A stretch of DNA of 64,000 nt, taken from NCBI GenBank assembly GCA_026129685.1, contig JAHCHO010000004.1, forward strand, positions 124,001 to 188,000, given 5' to 3'. Origin of the DNA: Fimbriimonadaceae bacterium. Its GTDB lineage: Bacteria > Armatimonadota > Fimbriimonadia > Fimbriimonadales > Fimbriimonadaceae. Below are positions 4,522 through 33,025 of the stretch, in pieces (position 1 is the first letter of the stretch; each line of letters opens with the position of its first letter). The notes under the pieces are model-generated. The model made no database searches and was not told where the DNA came from. It saw only the letters and a list, made by a program, of their open reading frames with translations. The position numbers and the translations under genes were made by a program.

Positions 4522-5633
4522 CCATCGCGCCCAAGCGCGACGATGCGGTCGGCGGCACGGGCGATGCCTTCCGGTGGGCCGAGCAGGTTCTCCAGTTCCG
4601 CAAAGGCGGCAAGGAGTTCACCACGTCGCGGGCCATCGCGCAGGGCTTCGATTTCGTCGGCGATCCTCTCGGGGGTGGCGTCGTGCTGGAGCAGTTCCTT
4701 GAGCAGGGGCCTGCCGAGCAGGATGTTCGGCAACGACACGTAGTCGAACTTCGGACGAAGGAGGTGGTACTCGAACTCCATCGCCTTGGAGACGACGTAG
4801 ACGACCACGCACGGACAGCCGCAGAGAGCGGCCTCGAGGGTGGCGGTGCCGGAGCAGACGATGGCGGCCTGGGCGCGCAAAAAGACGCCGTAGGTGTCGT
4901 CGGCGGTGAAGAGGTCGAGGCGTCGGCCGGGAGCGAGGTCTTCCCACTTGCGTCGGAAGGCATCCGGGTCGATCGTCGGGGCGACGGCGAACTCTAGGAC
5001 GGTGGCGGGCGCAAGACGTTCGGCAACCCTTGCGACGACGCGGAGAGTGTGCTCGATCTCGTGGAGTCGCGACCCCGCCAGTACGGCGATGCGATTCGGA
5101 TCGCGAGGTACCGCAGGACCCTCGGCGAGGCGGCGCGCGACCATTTCCTTGAGCGGGTGGCCGAACCAGTGCGCCTTCGCACCTGCCTGGGTGAGGAGGT
5201 CGGCCGACCAGGAGAACTGCGTGACGACCTCGTGGGTGATCCGGGGTAGATCCTTGCCCTGACGGTCTTTGCGCCAGGATCCCGGCGGGGCGAAGTACAG
5301 CACCTTCCAGCCCCTAGCCTTCGCGAAACGAGCCAGTTTTATGTTCATCGCGCCGAAGTCGATCGGCACGCACACGCCGGGCGAGCCCCGAGACAGGCGG
5401 CGCTTGGCCCGGACGTAGCCGACGAGGACCCTTGGCAACACGCCCACGGCCTTGACGACGCCGATCGATCCCCACTGGGAGGACTCGGCGACAACGACCG
5501 AGCCGGTTCGAGCGAATCGCTTGCCGCCGACCCCCTCGACGGCGACCTCGGGAACGCGCGCGCGAATCGCTTCGATCAGGGCGGCGGCATAGGCGTCGCC
5601 GGACGCTTCGCCGGCGGAGAAGAAGACCCTCAC
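4425..5633 (-). CDS. lpxB: Lipid-A-disaccharide synthase
   Basis: LpxB joins UDP-2,3-diacylglucosamine and 2,3-diacylglucosamine-1-phosphate to form the lipid A disaccharide at the inner face of the inner membrane. The 402-residue frame has the N-terminal AGEASGD motif, an AVLAGSRLHEIEH segment, ICSGTATLEAAL for UDP binding and the late PNILLGRP motif. The GTG start (5633) overlaps the lpxA stop by 4 nt. The last 35-40 residues (Gln/Pro/Ser/Asp-rich) go beyond the usual family end and are the part that overlaps the convergent fmdB gene. The order fabZ-lpxA-lpxB matches many diderms. Confidence 0.93.
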   Translation of the reverse strand: MRVFFSAGEASGDAYAAALIEAIRARVPEVAVEGVGGKRFARTGSVVVAESSQWGSIGVVKAVGVLPRVLVGYVRAKRRLSRGSPGVCVPIDFGAMNIKLARFAKARGWKVLYFAPPGSWRKDRQGKDLPRITHEVVTQFSWSADLLTQAGAKAHWFGHPLKEMVARRLAEGPAVPRDPNRIAVLAGSRLHEIEHTLRVVARVAERLAPATVLEFAVAPTIDPDAFRRKWEDLAPGRRLDLFTADDTYGVFLRAQAAIVCSGTATLEAALCGCPCVVVYVVSKAMEFEYHLLRPKFDYVSLPNILLGRPLLKELLQHDATPERIADEIEALRDGPRRGELLAAFAELENLLGPPEGIARAADRIVALGRDGYSDGLQAQPGASQPGASGLLLADSDDPEDGR

Positions 5634-19540: not shown

Positions 19541-20526
19541 ACGCCGACTGGTCAACCGAAGTCTCGCTTCGACCACTCACCATGTTGCGGGTCGGCGGGT
19601 GCGCCGAGCACTACGTGGCGGTACGAACGGCGAACGACCTGGCTGGGCACGCCATCCAGGCTCAGCGTTCCGGTCTCAGGACGACCATTCTGGGGTGGGG
19701 AAGCAACGTCGTGCCCGCAGATGACGGCGTGCCCGGCTTGGTGATCCACAACCTTGCCACTCGGATCGAAATCACGGCGACCGAAGGCGGGGGGCAGGGG
19801 TTGGTCCTCGCGGAGTCCGGTTGCTCGTTCCAGGAGCTGTTCTTGCGGTCGGCGCAAGCGGGTCTGCGAGGACTCGAGTTCGCGGTCGGGATTCCGGGGA
19901 CGCTTGGGGGCGCCTTGGTCAGTAACGCCGGGGCGTACCGGAGCAACGTTTCCGAGTTCTTGACGGCGCTCGAGATCGCGGTCGACGGCGAGCGACGGTG
20001 GGTCGATCCGTCCTGGATGGAGTTCGCCTACCGTGACTCGATCCTGCGCCGCCCGAATCCACCGGCGTGCGCGATCGTTCAGGTTCGGATGGCCCTGCCG
20101 AAGGGGGACCCAAAGCGCATCTATGACGAAGCTCGGGAGTACCAGCGGCAACGCATCGCCAAGCAACCGCCCCAGTCGAGCGTGGGGAGTTTCTTCAAGA
20201 ATGTCAACGACCACGGGCTTGCGGAGCGATTGGCGGGCCTGCCCGAGGGGTTGCGAAGGGCCGGCGTCGTGCCGGCCGGGTTCCTGATCGAGCGGGCGGG
20301 ACTGGGAGGGCATCGGGTTGGCGGGGCGAGCCTGAGTCGGCGGCACGCGAACTTCATCGTCAACGATCGGGGAGCGACGGCGTCGGATGTTCGACGACTC
20401 GCCGAGCACGCCCAGTGGCGCGTTTGGGAGACGTTCGGCGTCCTGATCGAGGAAGAGGCGCTCTATCTGGGCGACTGGTCGGGTTGGGACGGGCGCGACG
20501 CACCCGTCCCGGATTCGAAGGCCTAG
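19537..20526 (+). CDS. murB: UDP-N-acetylenolpyruvoylglucosamine reductase
   Basis: MurB reduces UDP-GlcNAc-enolpyruvate to UDP-MurNAc with FAD and NADPH. The 329-residue product has PLTMLRVGG, the GWGSNVVPAD FAD motif, GIPGTLGGALVSNAGAY, the YRDS segment and the catalytic Ser in SSVGSFFKN. A TTG start at 19537 (overlap TTGA with the tsaB stop, GGGGAG 8 nt upstream) is chosen because the ATG at 19582 would delete the first conserved strand. The stop overlaps the convergent lipoprotein gene by 4 nt. Confidence 0.93.
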   Translation: MNADWSTEVSLRPLTMLRVGGCAEHYVAVRTANDLAGHAIQAQRSGLRTTILGWGSNVVPADDGVPGLVIHNLATRIEITATEGGGQGLVLAESGCSFQELFLRSAQAGLRGLEFAVGIPGTLGGALVSNAGAYRSNVSEFLTALEIAVDGERRWVDPSWMEFAYRDSILRRPNPPACAIVQVRMALPKGDPKRIYDEAREYQRQRIAKQPPQSSVGSFFKNVNDHGLAERLAGLPEGLRRAGVVPAGFLIERAGLGGHRVGGASLSRRHANFIVNDRGATASDVRRLAEHAQWRVWETFGVLIEEEALYLGDWSGWDGRDAPVPDSKA

Positions 20527-23500
20527 GACACGCCGCTCCGCCCGAGGTTTCGACGCACGATCAGGAAGTCCTGGATGTTGACGGCGCCGTTGCCGTTCAA
20601 GTCGGCGTTCGGGTTCCAGTTCGCCGACGTCGGTGTCGAGCCGAAGGCGTTCCGGACGGCGAGGAAGTCGGCGATGTTGACGCTGTTGTTCCCGTCCACG
20701 TCGCCATTGAGAAGAGCGATGTCCAGGCCGGTGGCGTCGGCGGTGCGCACGTCCACGGTCGCCTTGGCGCGCAACCAGGTTCGCGGTTTCAGGTAGAGGT
20801 CGATCTCGCCAGCCCAAGCGGTCATCGTGAAGGACCCGTCCGGACCCACGACGACGTTCTGAACGGTGACGGTGCCCGCCTCGCCTTTCCTCTTCATCGT
20901 GACCGCCACCGGGGTGGGGGCGGCGGGCACCCAGTCGCCGAACGCGATTCGTCCGGTGACCACCCTTGCGACGGGCACGACGGTCAGCCATCCTTCGGCG
21001 TCGGCGCCGACGATGTCGGCGGTGATCTTGGAGGACTTCAGGGACGTCACGACCGAAGTGCTGCCGCTCGACTCATTCCCCGTGGTGCCACCGATGATCT
21101 GCATCGCGGGTGGAGCGGTCGCGTAGGCGGGCGCACTGCTCGTGAACACGACATCAACGGGCACGCCTCCCACCGTCTGGTCAAGCAGGACGGTCGCGAC
21201 ATAAGCCTCGCCCCCTACGACGACCCAGGGCTGCAGCAGCAGGGTCGCGACGTACCGCTTGAGGACGAACGAGTCCTGGGTCGAATTCCCGAGGTGGGTG
21301 GCGGTGTAGGTGACGGTGCGGTCGGTCGGGACCAGCTTGTTCACGGTGAACACGCCCGAAGTGGCCTGGTACCCGCCGTTGATGGTCGGCGTCGCCCCGC
21401 CCCAGCCATCGGTGATGCCGGTCTCCGGGCTGGTGAGCGATACCACGACGGGTACCGAGCCCACGACCTGATCGAGGTTGATCGTCCAGACCAAGCTGTG
21501 CCCGCCCCAGATCGGGCCCTCGTCGATGTCGAGCGTGTGGGTGTACTTCTTGACCACGAAGGAGTCCTGGTTGGAGTTGCCAAGGTGAGTCGCGGTATAG
21601 GTGACGGTGCGGTCGGCCGGGACCAGCTTGTTCACGGTGAAGGTGCCGGAAGTCGCCTGATAGCCGCCGTTGATGGTCGGCGTCGCGCCGTTCCAGCCGT
21701 CCGTGATTCCGGTCTCGGTCGTGGTCAAGGCGATCTGGACCGGGTCGATTCCGACCACGTGATCAAGGCTGATCACCCAGTTCAAGGAATGGCCACCCCA
21801 AACAGGGCCTTCATCAATGAGGAGGGTCGGGGTGTACTTCTTGACCAGGTACGCGGTTGTCAACTCACTCGTGGCGTACTTGGCCTTCCACGTCACCAAT
21901 CGGTCGTTCGGGACGACGGTCTTCGCCGTAAACACGCCGCTCGTGTCCTGGTAACCGCCGTTGATCGTCAGTTTGTTGTTGACCCACCCGCTGTCCTGGT
22001 TCGGTTCGGTCGTAGTGAGCTGAATCTCGAGGGGGTACGCGCCGACCGTATGGTCGAGCCCAAGGAAGAACACCGTCGAGTGCCCGCCCCAGATGGTGGC
22101 GTAATCCACGGAGAAGCGGTCGATCGTGTACCGCCGAATGAGGAGGCTTTGCGAACCGCTCGCCCCGTTCGTGGCGGTCACGGTGATGTTCACCCAAGTG
22201 TCCTCGGGGACGTTCTTGGGGAGGATCGTGAAAGTGCCGTCGGTGTAGCCCGCCGGAATCACAAAGCTCGTCGGGTCTATCGTGACGAGGTCGGGCCGGT
22301 CGCTGGTCACCTGGACCAGAACGTCGCCACGGTTCACGCCGAGGCCCACGTGGGCGGTCCCGATGACGGTGTGTCCGCCCCAGGCGCTTCCTTGGCTCAA
22401 GCTCACGCTCGCTCCGTAGACGAGGATCCGGAAGCTGGTCTGACGCACGGTCGTCGGGCCGAGGAAGGCGGACACGTTTACGGTCTCGCCATTCGCGGTC
22501 GCGGTGGTCGAGATGCCGAAAGTGGTGGTGGTCGCGCCGGCGGGAACAGTGACCGAGGCAGGACCTTGGGCGTGGAGCGCGCCGCCGTAGTTGATCTGGA
22601 AGGTGGCGCCGCCGGGAGGGGCAGCCTGGGTCATGGTGATCGTCGCGGCGACGGACTCGCCGCCGGCGACGGCGGCGGGCGCAACGGTGATGTCGTAGTT
22701 CGGTTGGACGAGGGCGACCGACCACATGCCCCTTCCCCAGGTGGCGACGTTCAGGCGATACGTCGTCGGATTCACCTCGATCTGGCTTATCTGAACCTGC
22801 GGCAGACCGGATAGACGAGCCCACGTCGCGCCGCCATCCTGGGTCGCGAACGCGCCGATGTCGGTGCCGACGTACCAGGTGGAGTTCGGGAAGTCCGGGT
22901 CGCGGGCGACGGTGTTGGCGGGAACCTGGGGGAGGCCGGCGGCACCCGCGTTGTCCACCGCCGTCCAGACGGGCGCCCCCACGGTCGTGTCCGGACACCG
23001 GTACAGGTGGGACACGTTCGGAGTGCCGAGTTGGGTGCCCGACATGCTGACAAGGAGGTCGTTCGGGTTGCTCGGGTGGACCGCGATCCCGGTGATCCCT
23101 CGGTTCGGAAGGTTCGAGTCAATTTGAACGACGGTGAAGTTGGCCCCGTTGCGGACGATTCGATAGAGAAAGCCGTCAGTGGTCCCGGCATAGAGGATCA
23201 GGTTGTTGGAAGGGGACACCACGATGGTGCGAACCTGGCCCCCCGAACCGCTCAACTGCGCGTTGCCGATCCGGTTCGTCCAGCCCGCCCCGGGGGTCCA
23301 GGTGTGGAGGAAGGCGGTGCCAACGTAGATGCGATCTTCCGTGGGGTCGGCCGCCATGTAACTCACAAAGCCGGCGGTATCGCCAGCCTGGACGGGCAAC
23401 TGAAAGAAGCCCTGCGATTGCCAGGAGTTCGTGGTTCGGTACAAGCCCCCCGACTGCCCGGATGAGTACTGGATCAACGGGTTGTGGGGCATGATGAGGC

Positions 23501-25136
23501 ACCCGCCACCGTCGCCGGGCGTGATGGAGTCCCACAGGTTGAGGTTGCCGTTCGAAAGCGGGGGAGTGGTGCCGGCGGTGCCGTTGTCCTGCAATCCGCC
23601 GAGAACCCGGGTCACATCGGTCGGATGGAAGGAGGCGGCGTAGAATTGGCTGACGTTGAGGGTCGCGCCAAGGTTGGTGAAGACGAACTGACCGGTCGCG
23701 GGGGTGTAGACGCACCGGTAGAGGCTGCCGTCGCACCCGACCAAACTCTGGTTCGCGTTCGTCGGGTTGACGGCGAACGAGTGTTGGTCGTTGTGGATGA
23801 TCGCGCTGTTCGTGCTGGTCTGGCCGACCGACTGCCAGTTCGCTCCGCTGTCGGTACTGACGGCGAGATCGATCAGGCCGACGAAAACGGTGTCGTTCGC
23901 GCCGTTGGCGGCGGTGTGGATGTGGAAGTCGTAGTAGGTTTGCGACCAGTTGTAGTTCGGGTCGCCGCCCAGCGAGAGATTGGGGAAGTTGCTCGTGACG
24001 TTGCTGAAGGTGGGGGCCACCGCGTTGGCGTCGGTCGAGCGCCAGATCGAGCCCTGTCGTCCAAGGTTCCCATTGAGAGGAGGCGCGTTCAGGAGGTACA
24101 GGGTGGTTCCGTTCACCGAACTCGCCGCGATGTCCACGTTGCGGGTGCCGTTGGGCATCGTGGGGAGCGTTATCGAGGAGAACGTCGCGCCACTGTCCCG
24201 CGATCGGTAAAGGCGCGCCGCGCCGCCGACACGACCGACGACGAACCAGCTTCGCACGTTCCCGGCGTCGGGTCGCCCGACCACCGCGCCGCTCCAGTCG
24301 CCGGCGGGAACCGTCGCGAGGGGCTCGAAGTTGACGCCCGAGTTCGTGGAACGCCAGACGAAGCCGCTTGCCCCGCCACCGTTCGAGCCGGTGACGACAA
24401 GGAGGTTCGCGGAATTCGCCGGGTCCATCACGATGCGCCGGATGGCGTAGCCGCGCATCGAATAGTTGGTGCCGCCGAGAACGCCCGCGAAGTCCATCTG
24501 GGTCCAGCCGGAGCCCTGTTGGTAGGACCATACACCGCGTCCGAGGGCGGACAACTGGTCGGCGTAATCGCCGGTGCCGACGAACACGCGCTCGGGGCTG
24601 ACGCTCGCGTCCACGACGATGCACGACACGTGGGAGTTATCCCAACGATCGCTGAGCGGCGTGAAGGTGGACCCGCCATCCGTGGACTTGAAGAGGCCGC
24701 CGTAGCCGCTGCCGACGTAGATCGTGTTGGCGTTCGTCGGGTGGTAGGCGATCGCGCTGACGCGGCCGTTGACGGGCGGAAGACCCCAATACTGGCGCTG
24801 GGGCGGATCCATGTTGTAGGGTCCGGTGTTCGACCAGGAATTGCCCGGGAACAGGAGGCCGGGGGCGCGCAAACGGAACTCGGGGAGTTTTTCCGCTTGC
24901 TCGACACCGAGGTCGTACGCCTCCCAGTTCACCTGGCCGTTGTCGTCGGCGCGCTCGCGGAGCCAGTCCTTCACCCATTCCTTCATCGGCCGGTCGGGGG
25001 TTCGCCAGGAAGATGCGAGGGCGTCCTTTCCCGGTACGGGCGCGCGCGACGTTGTCTCGGATTCCGGGCGACGGGGCGCTTGGCATCCAGATGCTAACAA
25101 GGCCAAGGCGACGAAGGAGCCAAGTTGTAGACGCAT
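20523..25136 (-). CDS. Large lipoprotein: beta-propeller, six Ig-like repeats, dockerin
   Basis: A 1537-residue surface lipoprotein. The signal peptide ends in a lipobox (LLASGC, Cys18). Residues about 100-800 form one or two BNR/sortilin-like beta-propellers with many STDGG, STNSG and SRDSG Asp-box motifs, as in exo-acting glycosidases or adhesins. About residues 815-1400 hold six Ig-like units of roughly 97 residues, four with the motif WGGH. The C-terminus has a dockerin-like pair of Ca-binding loops (DVDGNNSVNIADF and DLNGNGAVNIQDF, about 1475-1530). No catalytic residue can be assigned. It is probably a cell-surface binding protein. Transcription starts in the 25137-25303 gap. Confidence 0.82.
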   Translation of the reverse strand: MRLQLGSFVALALLASGCQAPRRPESETTSRAPVPGKDALASSWRTPDRPMKEWVKDWLRERADDNGQVNWEAYDLGVEQAEKLPEFRLRAPGLLFPGNSWSNTGPYNMDPPQRQYWGLPPVNGRVSAIAYHPTNANTIYVGSGYGGLFKSTDGGSTFTPLSDRWDNSHVSCIVVDASVSPERVFVGTGDYADQLSALGRGVWSYQQGSGWTQMDFAGVLGGTNYSMRGYAIRRIVMDPANSANLLVVTGSNGGGASGFVWRSTNSGVNFEPLATVPAGDWSGAVVGRPDAGNVRSWFVVGRVGGAARLYRSRDSGATFSSITLPTMPNGTRNVDIAASSVNGTTLYLLNAPPLNGNLGRQGSIWRSTDANAVAPTFSNVTSNFPNLSLGGDPNYNWSQTYYDFHIHTAANGANDTVFVGLIDLAVSTDSGANWQSVGQTSTNSAIIHNDQHSFAVNPTNANQSLVGCDGSLYRCVYTPATGQFVFTNLGATLNVSQFYAASFHPTDVTRVLGGLQDNGTAGTTPPLSNGNLNLWDSITPGDGGGCLIMPHNPLIQYSSGQSGGLYRTTNSWQSQGFFQLPVQAGDTAGFVSYMAADPTEDRIYVGTAFLHTWTPGAGWTNRIGNAQLSGSGGQVRTIVVSPSNNLILYAGTTDGFLYRIVRNGANFTVVQIDSNLPNRGITGIAVHPSNPNDLLVSMSGTQLGTPNVSHLYRCPDTTVGAPVWTAVDNAGAAGLPQVPANTVARDPDFPNSTWYVGTDIGAFATQDGGATWARLSGLPQVQISQIEVNPTTYRLNVATWGRGMWSVALVQPNYDITVAPAAVAGGESVAATITMTQAAPPGGATFQINYGGALHAQGPASVTVPAGATTTTFGISTTATANGETVNVSAFLGPTTVRQTSFRILVYGASVSLSQGSAWGGHTVIGTAHVGLGVNRGDVLVQVTSDRPDLVTIDPTSFVIPAGYTDGTFTILPKNVPEDTWVNITVTATNGASGSQSLLIRRYTIDRFSVDYATIWGGHSTVFFLGLDHTVGAYPLEIQLTTTEPNQDSGWVNNKLTINGGYQDTSGVFTAKTVVPNDRLVTWKAKYATSELTTAYLVKKYTPTLLIDEGPVWGGHSLNWVISLDHVVGIDPVQIALTTTETGITDGWNGATPTINGGYQATSGTFTVNKLVPADRTVTYTATHLGNSNQDSFVVKKYTHTLDIDEGPIWGGHSLVWTINLDQVVGSVPVVVSLTSPETGITDGWGGATPTINGGYQATSGVFTVNKLVPTDRTVTYTATHLGNSTQDSFVLKRYVATLLLQPWVVVGGEAYVATVLLDQTVGGVPVDVVFTSSAPAYATAPPAMQIIGGTTGNESSGSTSVVTSLKSSKITADIVGADAEGWLTVVPVARVVTGRIAFGDWVPAAPTPVAVTMKRKGEAGTVTVQNVVVGPDGSFTMTAWAGEIDLYLKPRTWLRAKATVDVRTADATGLDIALLNGDVDGNNSVNIADFLAVRNAFGSTPTSANWNPNADLNGNGAVNIQDFLIVRRNLGRSGVS
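21240..22125 (-). repeat. Three near-identical 291-bp units within the lipoprotein gene
   Basis: Units repeat with a 291-bp period (97 codons). For example, the stretch tgacggtgcggtcgg occurs at 21311 and 21602, and the WGGHS codons lie near 21500, 21791 and 22085. The two downstream-most units are the most alike (TGITDGW and the TINGGYQATSG motif). This points to recent in-frame duplication, with more diverged units toward the N-terminal side up to about 22700. Confidence 0.8.
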
Positions 25137-26464: not shown

Positions 26465-27064
26465 TCAGGCCTTGGCGCGCATGCGTCGCCGGAGCAGGCC
26501 GGCCGCGCCGATGGCGAGAGCGGTGACCGACATCGGCTCGGGAACGCCTTCCACCTTAATGCCGGCGGTGCTGATTTGGTAGTTGAACGGCGAGGCTCCC
26601 TGCTTGTAGGCGACCAAGTCCGCCGTCGCGCCGAGAGGAACGTACCAACCACCGTTGAAGGCGGCGTCCGGATTCACGAGCAGCCAATACTTCGAACCGG
26701 CGGTGACGGGGACGTTGAATCCGCTCACGGTGAACGGCGTCGGGTCGGTCCAGTCCTGAACACCGGTAAAGGCGACGGTCTGCAGGGTCGTGCCGAGGGT
26801 GTCGCTTCCGGAATCCGTCATGAAGGAGAGGGTGCCAGAGCCGCCGGTACCGGGTTGCTTGCGGATGGCGACCGTCACGTCGGTCGCGATACCGGTGCCG
26901 GTCGAGGTGAAGCGAGCGGCGGTCATCTGCGGGTTGCTGAAGCCCGTTCCCTGCAGGGTCCAGGCGGAGCTTTCCCAAGAGCCGTTGATGTTGTTGAAGA
27001 AGACCTGGGCGTTCGAGGCCGAGGCGACGACGATGGTGGCGAGGATCGCGAGAGTTCGTTTCAT
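26465..27064 (-). CDS. PEP-CTERM exported protein A (199 aa)
   Basis: A secreted protein with a signal peptide (about residues 1-19), a beta-rich domain of about 150 residues with TGTGIATDVTVAI and a YWLLVNPD segment like the choice-of-anchor R domain, and a C-terminal sorting signal. The signal is VPEP, a hydrophobic helix and RRRMR. PEP-CTERM tails are processed by exosortase/archaeosortase systems and tie proteins to the surface or exopolysaccharide. No exosortase is in the window. A paralogue is the next gene upstream. Confidence 0.8.
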   Translation of the reverse strand: MKRTLAILATIVVASASNAQVFFNNINGSWESSAWTLQGTGFSNPQMTAARFTSTGTGIATDVTVAIRKQPGTGGSGTLSFMTDSGSDTLGTTLQTVAFTGVQDWTDPTPFTVSGFNVPVTAGSKYWLLVNPDAAFNGGWYVPLGATADLVAYKQGASPFNYQISTAGIKVEGVPEPMSVTALAIGAAGLLRRRMRAKA

Positions 27065-27097: not shown

Positions 27098-27739
27098 TTA
27101 GCGAAGTCGATTGCCGGCAGACGAGGCTCTTCGACGCTTGAGGAGGCCGAGGGCGCCAATGCCGAGCGCCCCGAGGGACATCGGCTCGGGTACCGCCGTA
27201 CCTTCGACGGTCATGCCGGCTTGAGGCCCGTTGAAGTAGGTTGGAGGAGACGCCGCGTTGCCCGCCCAAGCGATGTTGCCGTTCGCCGAACCGGGCACGA
27301 TGCGCCAACCCATGTCCGACGTGAGCGACGGATTCACTTGAACCCAGTAACTCGTGCCGGAGATCACCGGTATGTTCAGTCCTCCAAAGGTGAGCAGCGA
27401 CGTCGAGTCCCAGGTCGGACTGGCGCCGAAGGCCACGGAGGCGATCGGCGAGCCGCTCATCGTGTTGCCCGAGTCGTTGAACACCGACATGGTGCCGCTT
27501 TGCATGGCGGAGCCGTTTTGGTGTTGGACGGAGAGCTTGATGTCCGTGATGTTCCCTGTTGCGCTCGACGTGAATTGCTGGGCCAGCCACTGTGGATTCG
27601 ACAAGCCGGTACCCCGAAGCGTGTAGGACGACGTACCGGTCCAAGCGCTGTACCCGTTGATGTTGTCGTAGAAGACGGTCTGAGCTCCGGAGAGCGATGC
27701 ACCGCATAGCGCGGCGGCCACGATGAGAGTTCTATTCAT
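27098..27739 (-). CDS. PEP-CTERM exported protein B (213 aa)
   Basis: A paralogue of the protein encoded just downstream, with the same plan: signal peptide (about 1-19), a NINGYSAW segment, the domain with YWVQVNPS, and a VPEPMSLGALGIGALGLL sorting helix ending in KRRR. The 34-nt gap to the second gene suggests one transcript. AGGA lies 4 nt before the ATG. The promoter may be the minus-facing half of the SARP-type operator at 27833-27894, with a TACATT box at 27817-27822. Confidence 0.82.
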   Translation of the reverse strand: MNRTLIVAAALCGASLSGAQTVFYDNINGYSAWTGTSSYTLRGTGLSNPQWLAQQFTSSATGNITDIKLSVQHQNGSAMQSGTMSVFNDSGNTMSGSPIASVAFGASPTWDSTSLLTFGGLNIPVISGTSYWVQVNPSLTSDMGWRIVPGSANGNIAWAGNAASPPTYFNGPQAGMTVEGTAVPEPMSLGALGIGALGLLKRRRASSAGNRLR

Positions 27740-27816: not shown

Positions 27817-27909
27817 AATGTACGAGCTTGATCGTGACGAAACCGTGACGGCCATTCGGCGTTCGGGAGGTCTCCCCGTCACGATTCCGTCACGCCGGAA
27901 GGCTAACAT
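27817..27909. promoter_or_regulatory. Divergent SARP-type operator/promoter with four 7-bp boxes
   Basis: Boxes CGTGACG at 27833-27839 and 27844-27850, and CGTCACG (its reverse complement) at 27877-27883 and 27888-27894. Starts lie at 0, 11, 44 and 55 bp, all on an 11-bp register. The right pair ends 9 nt before a -10 box TAACAT (27904-27909) facing the AAA/WD40 gene. The left pair, read on the minus strand, ends 10 nt before TACATT (27822-27817) facing the PEP-CTERM genes. Streptomyces antibiotic regulatory proteins bind heptamers repeated at 11 bp with the last one 8 bp from the -10. A SARP-like regulator is encoded at 31149-32957. Binding is inferred. Confidence 0.7.
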
Positions 27910-27916
27910 TGTCGGA

Positions 27917-30900
27917 GTGACCGAGCACGTCGCCTTCTTCAGGCCCGGCGGGACGCTACCGCCGGGGACGGCCAGCTACGTGCCGCGACGCGCCGACGAC
28001 GAGATCGTCGAGGCGCTCCTCGCGGGCGTCTACGTGTTCGTGCTCGACTCGCGGCAAAAGGGCAAGTCGTCCCTGATCGTCCGTTCCCTCGACCGTTTGC
28101 AGCAGGCGGGCGTGACCACCGTCCGGATCGATCTGCAGCGTCTCGGTTCGAATCTGCTTCCGGAACAGTGGTACGCGGGTTTGCTTCGAGGGCTCGGCCA
28201 GGACCTCGGGTTGACCGGGCCGCTGTTCGACCACTGGCGAGCGAACATCGAGATCGGGCCGGTCGCACGGCTCTTCAGCGCCCTCGAGGAGGTCGTTCTG
28301 GCTTCGGCGGCGGGACCGATCGTGGTTTTCGTGGACGAGGTGGACTTCGTTCGCTCCCTGCCGTTCTCGGCCGACGAGTTCTTCGCGGCGATTCGCGAGT
28401 GTTACAATCGCAGGTCCCAGTGCCCACGATTCGGGCGCCTTACCTTCTGCCTGGTCGGGGTCGCCGCGCCGAGTCAACTGATCGACAACGACGACGTGAC
28501 CCCGTTCAACATCGGCCGGCAGGTGGAACTGACCGACTTCACCCGCGAGGAAACCGCCCCCTATGTCGGACCGCTGTCGGCAGGGGGGAGGGACGGCGAG
28601 CGACTTCTCGATCGAATCCACTTCTGGGTATCCGGGCATCCCTACCTGACCCAACTGCTTGCCGCGAGGATCGCCGCCGATCCGAAGGTCCGCAGTCCCG
28701 GGGCGGTGGACGCGGTGGTTCGCGAGACGCTGCTCGGCGAGGACGCGCGCCACAAGGAACCGAACCTGGCCGACGTCGAGCGGCGTCTGCTCGAGGCGGA
28801 GCTGCCCGGCACCACACCCGAGGAGTCGCGAAGCCGGGTCCTCGAGGCCCATGGCGAACTCCTGCGGAACGGTCTCGCGCCGGGACGCCACGATGCCTTG
28901 CTGATCGCGACGCTCCGCCTGTCGGGCGTCGCGATCGAGGAATCGGGCAAGATCCGCGTTCGGAACCGGCTCTACCGGGTCCTCTTCGACGAGCGGTGGC
29001 GTCGGGCCAACCTGCCGGAGGCGGAGTTCCGGCGGCAACGAGCGGCTTCGCGTAGGGCAGCGTGGCGGGTCGGTTTGGTGGCGACGATGGTGGTCGCGGC
29101 GTTCGCGGCCATGGTCGTTTGGCTGGTCGTGGTCGCGAGCGAACGGGACTCGGCCCTCCGCGAGGCACGACGGCTCCAGATCGAGACCGCGGACATGGCG
29201 TACGCCTCGTCGATCGGACTCGCCGCGGAGCAGATCGAGGACGGGAGCTTTGTCTCGGCGGCGAGTTTGCTCGATTCCCAGCGGGACTATGCCAGGAAGG
29301 GCTGGGAGTGGTCGTACCTGTCGGCGGTGTTCGGACGGGCCCGAGTGCTTCGGCCGGCGATTCCGGGTGATCCCAACCGAACCCGGGTCATTTGGTGGGA
29401 GGGTGGGTTGGTCGAGGGCAAGGATCGCGGAATCTGCTTGAACGGACGCTCGATCGACGCGGAGTTTGGGTTCGAGGGGCAGTTCTCGGCGTACCGAACC
29501 TGGATTCGGGACACGGCCGGCCGGATACCGCTCCTGCAGCGCATCCGCTTGGCGAAGGCGGCGCGCGGCCAAGAAGATCAACCGATCGGGCTCAGCGGGA
29601 CCCCCGGTATCGAGTTTCTCGCCCACGCGAACCGAACGGGGTTCGACATTCGCCGGGACGGGTCGCCGGTGGAGCACGTTCCAACGGCGAAGGTGCCGGG
29701 AAGCCTAAGGCTTTCGCCGACCGGACGGTTTGTCGCGATGGGGGCGGAAGACGGGAGCCCCCATCTTTACGACCGAACGACGAAGCGGTGGTACGACGGT
29801 TTCGGGGCAGGATTCCGGTCCGACGACCGGTTCTTCACGGTGCTGTTCCCGACGGGCCGGGAACCGGAAGTTTGGCGGGCCGATGGAACGGTGGTCTGCA
29901 CTTTGGTCGGGCATTTGGGCTCCACGACCAGCCTGAACTGGTTCGCCGACGGCAAGCGTCTGCTGTCCTCCGGGTTCGACGGGTCGGTTCGCGTCTGGGA
30001 CGCGATGACGGGTCGACAACTCGGCATGTACCTCGGCTCTCGCTCTCCCCTAACTCACGCAACCCTAACCGAGGGCGAACGGACGGTGATCGCCCTAACC
30101 GCCGAGGGCGGGCTCCTCGAGTGGGACCTCCGGACTTCCGCACCGGCTCGAACCGCCAAGGCCAATGACGGCGAAGTGTTGGCGGGCAGGCTGTCTCCTC
30201 AGGGCGACCTGTACGCGACGGTCGGCACGGACGGCAAGTCGGCGATCTTCGACGTCGCTTCGGGTCGGAGGGTCGCCACGGTCGATGTCGGGTTCTCGGT
30301 CGAGGCGAACCCCCTCGCGTTCTGCGAGGACGGGAAGCGGGTGGCGTACATCACCGGCGAGGGTGACCTCTTGATCGTGGAGGCCCGAACGGGACGGGTC
30401 GTTCGTCGTACGAGGATCGACGGCCGGCCGGCCAAGGCCCTCGCGATCGGGCCGACCGGCCAGATCGTGGTGACGCTGGGCCGGTACGGCGTCGCCACGC
30501 TGGCCGGCCCCCTGTCCGAAGCCAAAGTCCGGGGCGACCAAGGAATCGAGTGCCTTCGCGCGGCGATCTCGCCGGACGGCCGCTTCCTTGCGGTCGGTTC
30601 CTCGGAAGGGCGGGTCGCAGTTTTGGACGCAAGCACCCTCGCGATGGTCCGATCGGTCACCGACGTCAAGGCTCCGGTGCGGCATCTCGAATGGTCGCAC
30701 GACGGACGTTGGCTCGCGGTGACGACGGCAACCTCCTATGTCGGCCTGTTCTCGATGGACCGACCGGGCTGGAGCCGGTCCTTGGTCGGGCACGCGAGCC
30801 GCGCTTGGGGCGCCCGCTTCACGAAGGACGACAAGCGTCTGTTGACGAACTCCTTTGACCGGACGGTTCGCGTTTGGGACACCTCGACCGGCGAAGAGAT

Positions 30901-31144
30901 CGCGGTCCTACAACACCCCGGGTGGGTTTCCACCGCCGAGTGGTTTCCCAACGATGAACGGATCGTCACGTCCTGCGCGGACGGCTTCGTGCGCGTGTTC
31001 AATCCAAGGACCGGCCAGGAGTTGATCAAACTCAAGGGGCACGAAGGCTACGCGTTCGACGCGGAACCGACGCCGGACGGGGCGACGGTCGTCAGCACGG
31101 GAGCCGACGGCACCGCCCGGTTTTGGCGAGGCGCGCCGCGCTAG
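27917..31144 (+). CDS. AAA-like ATPase, transmembrane, WD40 sensor protein
   Basis: A 1075-residue STAND-like protein. Residues 1-330 form an AAA-like NTPase domain: Walker A in SRQKGKSS (about 45-52), Walker B IVVFVDEVD (about 133-141) and a winged-helix part near 290-330. A transmembrane helix (about 384-408) is followed by a short coiled segment and a WD40 beta-propeller (about 440-1075), with repeats such as GFDGSVRVWD and SFDRTVRVWD. Such proteins couple ligand or stress sensing by WD40 to NTPase switching. The GTG at 27917 was chosen because the upstream frame is operator DNA and TAACAT lies 7 nt before it (leaderless). Its 3' end meets the SARP gene with a 4-nt gap. Confidence 0.82.
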   Translation: MTEHVAFFRPGGTLPPGTASYVPRRADDEIVEALLAGVYVFVLDSRQKGKSSLIVRSLDRLQQAGVTTVRIDLQRLGSNLLPEQWYAGLLRGLGQDLGLTGPLFDHWRANIEIGPVARLFSALEEVVLASAAGPIVVFVDEVDFVRSLPFSADEFFAAIRECYNRRSQCPRFGRLTFCLVGVAAPSQLIDNDDVTPFNIGRQVELTDFTREETAPYVGPLSAGGRDGERLLDRIHFWVSGHPYLTQLLAARIAADPKVRSPGAVDAVVRETLLGEDARHKEPNLADVERRLLEAELPGTTPEESRSRVLEAHGELLRNGLAPGRHDALLIATLRLSGVAIEESGKIRVRNRLYRVLFDERWRRANLPEAEFRRQRAASRRAAWRVGLVATMVVAAFAAMVVWLVVVASERDSALREARRLQIETADMAYASSIGLAAEQIEDGSFVSAASLLDSQRDYARKGWEWSYLSAVFGRARVLRPAIPGDPNRTRVIWWEGGLVEGKDRGICLNGRSIDAEFGFEGQFSAYRTWIRDTAGRIPLLQRIRLAKAARGQEDQPIGLSGTPGIEFLAHANRTGFDIRRDGSPVEHVPTAKVPGSLRLSPTGRFVAMGAEDGSPHLYDRTTKRWYDGFGAGFRSDDRFFTVLFPTGREPEVWRADGTVVCTLVGHLGSTTSLNWFADGKRLLSSGFDGSVRVWDAMTGRQLGMYLGSRSPLTHATLTEGERTVIALTAEGGLLEWDLRTSAPARTAKANDGEVLAGRLSPQGDLYATVGTDGKSAIFDVASGRRVATVDVGFSVEANPLAFCEDGKRVAYITGEGDLLIVEARTGRVVRRTRIDGRPAKALAIGPTGQIVVTLGRYGVATLAGPLSEAKVRGDQGIECLRAAISPDGRFLAVGSSEGRVAVLDASTLAMVRSVTDVKAPVRHLEWSHDGRWLAVTTATSYVGLFSMDRPGWSRSLVGHASRAWGARFTKDDKRLLTNSFDRTVRVWDTSTGEEIAVLQHPGWVSTAEWFPNDERIVTSCADGFVRVFNPRTGQELIKLKGHEGYAFDAEPTPDGATVVSTGADGTARFWRGAPR

Positions 31145-31148
31145 CCGC

Positions 31149-32957
31149 TCAGGAGTTCAAGGCATCGAGAGACCGCCCAAGAAAGTCCCGGTACGCCGGT
31201 ACCCGGAACTCCAGAGCGCCATCGGACTTCCGAACCAGCATCCCCCCGGCGATCAGGCGGTGGGCGGACTTTGCGTCCCGAAAAGGTTGGTTGCGCAGCA
31301 AGCGCCGGACCTCGTCTTTCGTGGGCTCGTCACGGTCAAGCACATCGAGGAGGCGACGAAGGTGCTCGCCGAAGGGTCCGTCCTCTTGCGCCGCGTTGGC
31401 CTCGAGGTCATCCAGTCGGGTCCCGCCGAGAACGAGGGCGTCCAACGCTCGTCGGGTCAGGAACGGCTGGCCACCGGTGAGATTCGCCAACCGACGGACC
31501 TCGGAATCCTTCAACGTCGTGCCGTAGCGCAAGCTCAGTTCGCGCGTTTCGGCTTCGCCGAAGTCGCGCATCGGAATCCTGACCCCGACGTTGAAGGGGG
31601 ACTGGTTGATGTCCTTGATGAACAAGTGCGCCTCGGTCGCATAGGCGATCACGAGGGTGAGTTTGTTGAAGGGACCCTCGGCCTCCATGGCGCGGCGGTT
31701 GTGCCAGCTGCGAACCAGGCCGAAGAAGTCGTCGGCGAACACGGTGCCGAAGAGACGGTCGGTCTCGTCCATCGCCCAGACGACCGGTCCCTCGACTTTC
31801 GCCAAGGCTGACTCGACCACGGCATCGAGGTTCGAGTTCGGCCCGAGCCACTCGTTCCACATCGCGGGAAGGTTCAGATCCGCGCCCAATTGGGTTGAAA
31901 AGCCATAGGCGATCGCCCGGCAGAAGGCATCGGCCGTGGCGAGTTGCGATCGGCTGAGAACCTGAAAGTCGGTGATCGCGACGCGGGAGTCCGAGCGCCG
32001 AACCTCGTTGAGGACGCGACCCAAGAGGGACGTTTTGCCGACCTGGCGCGCGCCGTGAACCAAGATCGTCGTCTCGCGTCGGCCGATCGCACGACGGAGC
32101 GCCCCGTCGCAGTCCCGCGCGATATAGAAGGGCGATCCGGCCGGCACCGCCCCTCCCGCCGACTCGGCCGCCGGCACCTCGGAAGTCGGCCGGCGCGAGG
32201 GCTCGCCGGTTGGATCGGCACCCGCCAAGCTTTCCAACGCTTTCACGCTCTTGGCGGAGGGTGGCTCGCCCCATTGGTCGTCCAGCAAGGTTTCCAGTTC
32301 TTCGAACTGCCGGATCGCTTGGGAACGAAGCCCGGCCGAGGCATAGGCCCGCATGAGGGCGACGTGAACATCCTCTCGCAGAGGCGCGACGGTGACGGCG
32401 TGGCGACCGACGCGAAGCGCCTCGTCATGGCGCTCGTTTCGGAGCAACAGGGCGATCAACTGCTCGACGGTCTGCGCGAACAACTCCTCGAGTTCCATTC
32501 GGTAGACGCCGATCCTCGGGTCGTCGTCGTCGGGAAGCAACCGGCCGGTGTAGAGTTGGAACGCGGACCGGAGGTTGCTCTCTTCTTCGCTGCCTTCCAG
32601 GCCGGCGTCGGTGGTCTGTTTGAAGATCGCGACGTCCGTCTGAACCCGCTCCGGATCGAGCCAAATGTGGTCGTGGTCGGCATGGACGATCAGGGGGATA
32701 CCGGGCTCCTCCTCGAGGGCTTGCCGGACGTCCGCGAGGGCTCGGCGCAGATTCTGGGCCTGCCGGTCTCCGTCGCTCTCGGGCCAAAGCAACTCCATGA
32801 GCTCCGACTTTGCGACCGATTTGCCGAGCCGGAGCGCGAGGCGCGACAGCAACCTCTCGGCAGTGCGCGACCGGAATTTGGGCGGTACGGCGGGCTCCCG
32901 AGTAGAGACTCGGAGCCCGCCGAGCATCTGGACGCTGACGGCCGCATTGCCGTTCAC
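31149..32957 (-). CDS. SARP-type regulator fused to AAA-like ATPase
   Basis: A 602-residue regulator. An OmpR/SARP winged-helix domain (about 6-95; TAERLLSRLALRLG, then ELMELLWPES and LRRALADVRQAL) precedes a bacterial transcriptional activation domain of TPR type (about 105-245). After a Pro-rich linker comes an AAA-like domain (about 275-600) with Walker A HGARQVGKTS and Walker B VVWAMDETD. The AAA part resembles that of the convergent AAA/WD40 protein. The 11-bp-spaced boxes at 27833-27894 are its likely target. The GTG at 32957 overlaps the stop of a 23-codon upstream frame (GTGA). An in-frame TTG at 32999 is a weaker choice. Confidence 0.82.
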   Translation of the reverse strand: MNGNAAVSVQMLGGLRVSTREPAVPPKFRSRTAERLLSRLALRLGKSVAKSELMELLWPESDGDRQAQNLRRALADVRQALEEEPGIPLIVHADHDHIWLDPERVQTDVAIFKQTTDAGLEGSEEESNLRSAFQLYTGRLLPDDDDPRIGVYRMELEELFAQTVEQLIALLLRNERHDEALRVGRHAVTVAPLREDVHVALMRAYASAGLRSQAIRQFEELETLLDDQWGEPPSAKSVKALESLAGADPTGEPSRRPTSEVPAAESAGGAVPAGSPFYIARDCDGALRRAIGRRETTILVHGARQVGKTSLLGRVLNEVRRSDSRVAITDFQVLSRSQLATADAFCRAIAYGFSTQLGADLNLPAMWNEWLGPNSNLDAVVESALAKVEGPVVWAMDETDRLFGTVFADDFFGLVRSWHNRRAMEAEGPFNKLTLVIAYATEAHLFIKDINQSPFNVGVRIPMRDFGEAETRELSLRYGTTLKDSEVRRLANLTGGQPFLTRRALDALVLGGTRLDDLEANAAQEDGPFGEHLRRLLDVLDRDEPTKDEVRRLLRNQPFRDAKSAHRLIAGGMLVRKSDGALEFRVPAYRDFLGRSLDALNS

Positions 32958-33025
32958 GGAAGGCGCTTCTCGGAGGGAGTTCTCGCCTTGCGCCCGCAAC
33001 CGGACGATCGCCAGCGTACCGTCAT
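32954..33025 (-). CDS. Possible 23-residue leader peptide of the SARP gene
   Basis: A short open frame with ATG at 33025, 7 nt after a TAGACT -10 box, ending in TGA that overlaps the GTG start of the SARP-AAA gene. Its product would be basic (many Arg, Lys). No Shine-Dalgarno precedes the SARP GTG, so translation of the leader could carry ribosomes onto it. It may also be chance. Confidence 0.35.
   Translation of the reverse strand: MTVRWRSSGCGRKARTPSEKRLP

Follow-up and report, generated by a model that had tools for sequence, protein, structure and literature searches.

The intergenic region at positions 27,817 to 27,909 of the window (the whole 64,000-nucleotide stretch analysed here) is best read as a divergent, two-sided operator-promoter, whose regulator would most likely be the SARP-AAA_35 protein encoded at 31149-32957, and which would drive a membrane sensor gene on one side and PEP-CTERM genes on the other. 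We give this reading a probability of roughly 0.8. No binding or expression data are available, so that binding, activation and signal relay are all inferred. The features concerned are as follows, from left to right.

26465..27064, minus strand: second PEP-CTERM-like gene, 44% identical to the first (tblastn); C-terminus VPEP...RRR
27098..27739, minus strand: PEP-CTERM protein of 213 aa; NCBIfam TIGR02595 at 22.1 bits (cut-off 16); C-terminus VPEP...KRRR
27817..27822, minus strand (read 27822-27817): -10 element TACATT for leftward transcription; the downstream repeat starts 17 bp away
27833..27839, minus strand: heptamer CGTGACG (CGTCACG on the minus strand), downstream repeat of the leftward promoter; from direct reading and invariant columns in the near-relative alignment
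27844..27850, minus strand: heptamer CGTGACG (CGTCACG on the minus strand), upstream repeat of the leftward promoter, spaced 11 bp from the other heptamer; from direct reading and the near-relative alignment
27877..27883, plus strand: heptamer CGTCACG, upstream repeat of the rightward promoter; from direct reading and the genome pattern search
27888..27894, plus strand: heptamer CGTCACG, downstream repeat of the rightward promoter; CGTCAC columns invariant in the near-relative alignment
27904..27910, plus strand: -10 element TAACATT (TAACAT or AACATT) of the rightward promoter; A and T positions conserved over 24 promoters
27917..31144, plus strand: AAA_35 (STAND-type), single TM and WD40 propeller protein of 1075 aa; from Pfam, a TM with positive N-side and an invariant GTG in the alignment
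31149..32957, minus strand: SARP (OmpR-type DNA-binding domain plus BTAD) joined to a STAND-like AAA_35 domain; 602 aa when started at GTG 32957; from Pfam, profile and predicted fold

The four exact heptamers lie between two back-to-back promoters at offsets of 0, 11, 44 and 55, just as the sequence-only reading had claimed and as direct reading of the positions bears out. Read outward, each side takes the form CGTCACG-N4-CGTCACG-N9/10-(-10), and a repeat search recovered two direct-repeat families at 11 bp together with one 19-nt inverted repeat of 89% complementarity. Heptameric direct repeats on an 11-bp register are a criterion for a SARP operator, and this criterion is fulfilled. Taken alone, CGTSACG shows no enrichment in the window (22 occurrences against 27 expected). 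The genome scan for pairs spaced by 11 bp, which had been proposed along with the original claim, returned exactly two perfect copies of CGTCACG-N4-CGTCACG in 3,941,356 bases, both of them at this operator. The shorter GTCAC-N6-GTCAC occurs in seven genomic copies versus none for the reversed control. The remaining five of these lie in or beside reading frames or inside an 11-bp tandem array, and inspection revealed no -10 pattern at the other exact GTCAC pairs of the genome, so that the direct regulon predicted for this genome consists of this one region. Across 113 genomes, the exact two-sided pattern of four boxes was found at six places, and its control at none. The tandem array just mentioned comprises about six GAATCACAACA-like units at L193 3366-3440 (G000:C16, about 253366-253440). 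Separately, low-complexity CGTCACC repeats are present in G017, a genome without BTAD.

Both -10 elements had also been named beforehand, the minus-strand TACATT beginning 10 nt past the left heptamer pair and TAACAT (27904-27909) beginning 9 nt past the right one. The former stands, and the latter is indeed present at that distance, although its exact frame needs a small correction: relatives place the rightward -10 one base further right (AACATT, 27905-27910), which leaves TAACATT ambiguous by one base. From the start of the downstream repeat to the -10, the window thus shows 16 and 17 bp, the rightward side being one base shorter unless it is read as AACATT. When 24 promoters were aligned on the downstream repeat, the -10 having played no part in site selection, an A stood at +19 in 19 of the 24 and a T at +23 in 21, and these fixed positions make the -10 hexamer begin 17 bp after the downstream-repeat start. 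The afs box in its complex with AfsR extends from -40 to -19, so that the downstream repeat begins at -29 (PMC10936776); if the -10 is taken to begin near -12, this again gives 17 bp, as in the promoters aligned here. SARP operators are expected to have their 3' repeat about 8 bp before the -10, and the distance observed here satisfies this second criterion. A scan of the region for sigma70-type -35/-10 promoters found no consensus promoter, and no T-tract terminator was found at the operator.

The candidate regulator gene is convergent with the AAA-WD40 gene, and besides GTG 32957 an alternative TTG start at 32999 is also open. A SARP is recognised by an OmpR-type winged-helix DNA-binding domain followed by a BTAD, and the domain matches and the predicted model indicate that this protein qualifies. 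The BTAD scores 67.7 bits (Pfam cut-off 22.1); Trans_reg_C reaches 22.7 bits in the window protein, under the cut-off of 26.2, and 32.2 bits in the L072 homologue. A profile of 14 relatives matches AfsR (E 2.8e-13) and EmbR (E 3.6e-10). In the predicted model (mean pLDDT 83, pTM 0.53), about the first 250 residues resemble AfsR and EmbR with Z about 18, and the remainder superposes on STAND/NLR ATPases with Z 15-21. The BTAD score over its cut-off and the AfsR and EmbR matches in profile and fold confirm the earlier proposal of a SARP-type regulator nearby, and the term “STAND-like” finds support in the predicted fold of the AAA_35 domain, which meets the expectation of a NOD-type ATPase as far as a model can. 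AAA_35 covers residues 283-607 of 616 and the chain ends with it; there are no sensor repeats in the regulator chain, and the WD40 repeats sit on the neighbouring protein.

With respect to the contacts made by AfsR, W58, R71 and R78 of the regulator are conserved (AfsR W74, R87 and R94), and the positions equivalent to AfsR P79, T88 and K95 differ, as does R92, which is D76 here. Since the base-contacting T88 and R92 of AfsR are R72 and D76 in this protein, specificity cannot be transferred from AfsR, and the differing recognition helix, judged by alignment, would be in keeping with a different box. The score against the AfsR equivalog NF053617 falls far short of the curated cut-off (25.9 bits, cut-off 1430), and PADLOC gave weak partial matches only. 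The genome encodes only two BTAD proteins, the other one being a 911-aa SARP at G000:C14. A SARP with a similar recognition helix at L052 has no box nearby.

The link between boxes and regulator was examined in relatives, the named ones being mostly Armatimonadota MAGs (Chthonomonas sp., Fimbriimonadaceae). In these genomes the AAA_35-TM-WD40 gene usually lies near an AAA_35 partner whose front end is either a SARP or a cyclase/TIR, and because this front end varies beside the same AAA-WD40 gene, the loci constitute a natural experiment. A region was scored as positive when the 300 bp before the AAA-WD40 start contained a GTCAC pair at lag 11 that matched 9 or more of the 10 bases. Such a pair precedes the gene in 15 of the 18 regions with a linked SARP-AAA_35 and in none of the 16 with a cyclase/TIR-AAA_35 partner. 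It also occurs in one of the 12 regions without a linked partner, in a genome (G076) that encodes a 63% identical SARP-AAA_35 elsewhere. The SARP genes of the same loci, which served as a matched control, have no pair upstream (0/18). The conservation test set out with the original claim, on whether boxes and spacing are kept in relatives, was thus passed. Autoregulation of the SARP gene was considered as well, and finds no support, given the 0/18 boxes in the SARP upstream regions.

Three SARP-linked regions are exceptions. In one, the AAA-WD40 gene stands second in a tandem of two, and another has its pair about 1 kb upstream, before a PD40-type propeller gene that precedes the AAA-WD40 gene; at L075 a SARP is linked and no box was found. 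When the window is excluded, 14 of 17 regions still carry the pair, against 0.4 expected in dinucleotide shuffles. Moreover, a de novo count of all 5-mers at lags 8-14, in which no motif or lag was named, placed GTCAC at lag 11 on top (16 of 19 regions), with the best 5-mer at any other lag reaching 6; GTCAC itself is found at lag 11 in 15/18 regions and at any other lag in no more than 5/18. When five near relatives are compared, invariance within the intergenic region is mainly confined to the boxes, the A and T of the -10 and the GTG start, and the spacing between the two heptamer pairs differs. On the AAA_35 tree, AAA-WD40 genes with a linked SARP group together (3 label changes); the loci therefore do not count as independent, and Fisher values exaggerate the association. 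Within the range of these sequence comparisons, the operator is conserved together with the SARP gene, which is a further criterion for a SARP operator, and the SARP reading of the boxes is computationally well supported.

The association has its limits. The more distant SARP-AAA_35 proteins at L208, L217 and L219 have no such boxes, and there is one pair at L218. In several relatives only the exported-protein side carries a strong pair, the sensor side having a single half-site (in some of them at the proper distance) or a weaker match. In G001 the operator is present and the SARP-AAA_35 gene was not found in an assembly that is 89% complete. As a separate observation, four 11-bp units of another heptamer, GTTCGAC/GTCCGAC, precede a cyclase-type AAA-WD40 gene at L076 about 4600-4700 (G022:C18), where no SARP is linked.

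The two leftward genes are separated by 33 nt, the second lying downstream of the first, and they are probably co-transcribed. The second has no NCBIfam match, and its sorting motif was recognised by eye only. Among relatives the divergent gene differs and is usually exported-looking: a PEP-CTERM protein in the window and at L130, PD40 propellers at L072, L073 and L125, a subtilase at L127 and an M43 protease at L126. Three of the six four-box places are at AAA-WD40 genes, two are before homologues of the window PEP-CTERM genes and one is before another PEP-CTERM gene (G099). These homologues, 37-41% identical to the window PEP-CTERM proteins, come from both sister genomes (G001 and G002), where they lie elsewhere than at this locus. 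We also collected as promoter-like boxes the exact pairs with a proper -10 from those examined in 14 relative genomes, this locus and G001 (n=35). A PEP-CTERM gene is directly downstream of 11 of these 35, versus 6 of 355 background ORFs, and many of the other boxes precede genes with signal-peptide-like starts. The proposal that PEP-CTERM genes are targets, for which no binding or expression data exist, thus gains support from the boxes before homologous PEP-CTERM genes at other loci of the sister genomes, and the boxes would mark these genes as targets. Since several relatives encode many SARPs, some boxes there may serve other SARPs. It was also observed that a family of PEP-CTERM proteins of about 210 aa occurs at several loci in the genus (L244, L245, L181, L250; G001, G002), with a GTCAC 11-bp box upstream of each.

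On the rightward side the reading frame opens at TTG 27806, and the best start is instead GTG 27917, about 7 nt after the -10. This spacing is conserved in near relatives (window, L069, L116, L119, L120), a pattern from which we infer that the AAA-WD40 mRNA is probably leaderless. The protein has a likely single TM at residues 387-407. Because the flank on the N-side of this segment is positive, both in the window and in nearly every relative whose full length was read, AAA_35 should lie inside and the propeller outside. The AAA_35 assignment in this protein comes from a Pfam match only. Elsewhere in the window, 20523-25136 on the minus strand encodes a secreted-looking protein of 1537 aa, in which a part resembling sortilin/Vps10 is combined with a dockerin type I domain at the C-terminus.

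Direct repeats on an 11-bp register are not exclusive to SARPs. The PHO boxes bound by PhoB/PhoP-type response regulators of the OmpR family are also 7-bp units on this register and resemble the present boxes in sequence (CTGTCAT in E. coli, GTTCACC in S. coelicolor; PMC4415409), and a site common to AfsR and PhoP is known in Streptomyces (PMC10972967). That the window boxes are PHO-box-like sites is nevertheless improbable: they track a linked or genome-encoded SARP-AAA_35 gene, the genes downstream are sensors and exported or PEP-CTERM proteins, and there is no pair near the only PF12849 (pstS-type) gene found in the genome, other phosphate genes being outside this check. The -10 distance fits SARPs as well, though it may not exclude PhoB-type sites. 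We regard it as similarly hard to credit that the main user of the boxes is a different SARP, be it the 911-aa protein or the large SARPs of relatives. Most genomes of the class encode several SARPs, and box sites are also found away from SARP-AAA_35 genes, which leaves room for such a user. However, the AAA-WD40 boxes follow the SARP-AAA_35 partner, no box lies near the 911-aa SARP gene, and this second of only two BTAD proteins in the genome has the recognition helix SLRTALSSLR as compared with NLRRALADVR.

The inverted repeat, with its 19-nt arms, could in principle form an RNA hairpin or terminator, or the cluster could be due to chance, and both options are scarcely tenable. Besides the lack of a T-tract, the half-sites are direct repeats at 11 bp, conservation lies mainly in boxes, -10 and start, the pair-to-pair spacing varies, and relatives showed neither compensatory stem changes nor loss of the 11-bp register. 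Chance is made improbable by the uniqueness of the two perfect pairs in the genome, the shuffle expectation of 0.4, the de novo recovery and the null control for the four-box pattern. A last possibility accepts SARP binding and supposes that the protein represses, or that it acts on only one of the two genes; the relatives in which the strong pair faces the exported-protein gene only would agree with it. It remains unlikely, given that in the window and near relatives the repeats replace the -35 at an activating distance on both sides, and that the region lacks a consensus -35/-10 promoter.

The preferred reading, a SARP-driven divergent promoter, suggests the following course of events. On each side, two head-to-tail heptamers would stand in for the -35 element, with the -10 beginning 16-17 bp from where the downstream repeat starts. 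Each pair would receive a side-by-side dimer of the SARP domain, which would contact sigma and RNA polymerase as AfsR does. The inferred outcome is activation rather than repression, switching on the membrane AAA_35-TM-WD40 protein rightward and the PEP-CTERM protein pair leftward. The regulator combines SARP and STAND without a sensor, and its neighbour combines STAND, TM and WD40 without an effector, with AAA_35 common to both. From this we infer a split, membrane-linked signalling pair, in which the WD40 membrane protein may relay its signal to the regulator through the common AAA_35 domains.

More tentatively, and at somewhat less than even odds, we propose a general “split STAND” system, where a membrane STAND-WD40 protein, its propeller lying outside, would detect a cue at the surface and hand it on by AAA_35 pairing to a soluble partner with an exchangeable front (SARP, cyclase+TIR, kinase+TIR or CHAT). 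In the SARP version, GTCAC boxes on the 11-bp register would define the output, a regulon comprising PEP-CTERM and other exported proteins together with the gene of the sensor itself. Among relatives (L076-L085, L222, L231, L234), the partner front ends observed are SARP, class III cyclase+TIR, protein kinase+TIR, CHAT and CHAT+TIR, those with kinase+TIR, CHAT or CHAT+TIR being in Chloroflexi and other relatives. In both Armatimonadota and Chloroflexi, the AAA_35 pair has the look of a modular system for signalling or conflict.

To our knowledge, SARPs are known almost wholly as activators of antibiotic clusters in actinomycetes, and within our partial coverage of the literature SARP work was found only in these bacteria. 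Under the same restriction, we found no report of a link between SARPs and the control of PEP-CTERM or exported proteins, and novelty is claimed with care. For a little-studied bacterium of the Armatimonadota, the comparative evidence presented here provides a SARP operator together with a likely regulator and likely targets, and ties the family to the control of PEP-CTERM and other exported proteins. Next to one and the same membrane STAND-WD40 gene, SARP is exchanged for cyclase/TIR partners and the boxes come and go with it, which makes the split STAND relay directly testable.

Among the closest known systems is AfsR with its afs box in Streptomyces coelicolor (PMC10936776; PDB 8HVR, 8K60, 8JKE). 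Both regulators combine an OmpR-type DNA-binding domain, a BTAD and a STAND/NOD domain, and both sites have two 11-bp direct repeats over the -35, the downstream repeat of the afs box starting 17 bp before the -10. To the profile match given above (E 2.8e-13), the fold adds Z about 18 over 236-240 residues. However, AfsR has a TPR sensor in its chain, which the window regulator lacks, and their identity is only about 22%. The AfsR unit is CGTT(T/C)ATCG as opposed to CGTCACG, and the contact residues T88 and R92 are replaced by R and D. AfsR targets antibiotic genes, whereas the likely targets here are sensor and surface-protein genes in another phylum. The PHO boxes of PhoB/PhoP resemble the window boxes in their 7+4-bp direct repeat units at the -35 region, and differ in that the window boxes are linked to a SARP gene and none is present at the phosphate-type gene tested. 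As for the STAND NTPases, the regulator AAA_35 model superposes on archaeal 2QEN (Z 21.5, 305 residues), CED-4 (Z 17.9), the plant NLR RPP1 (Z 17.9) and the MalT complex 8BOB (Z 14.8), but in the present case two proteins, each with AAA_35 and one with a TM, divide effector (SARP) and sensor (WD40) between them. Finally, the predicted bacterial STAND conflict systems share with the partners of relatives a TIR, CHAT, protein kinase or cyclase before AAA_35, while the output domain in the window is of the transcription activator type, with a likely operator and likely exported-protein targets.
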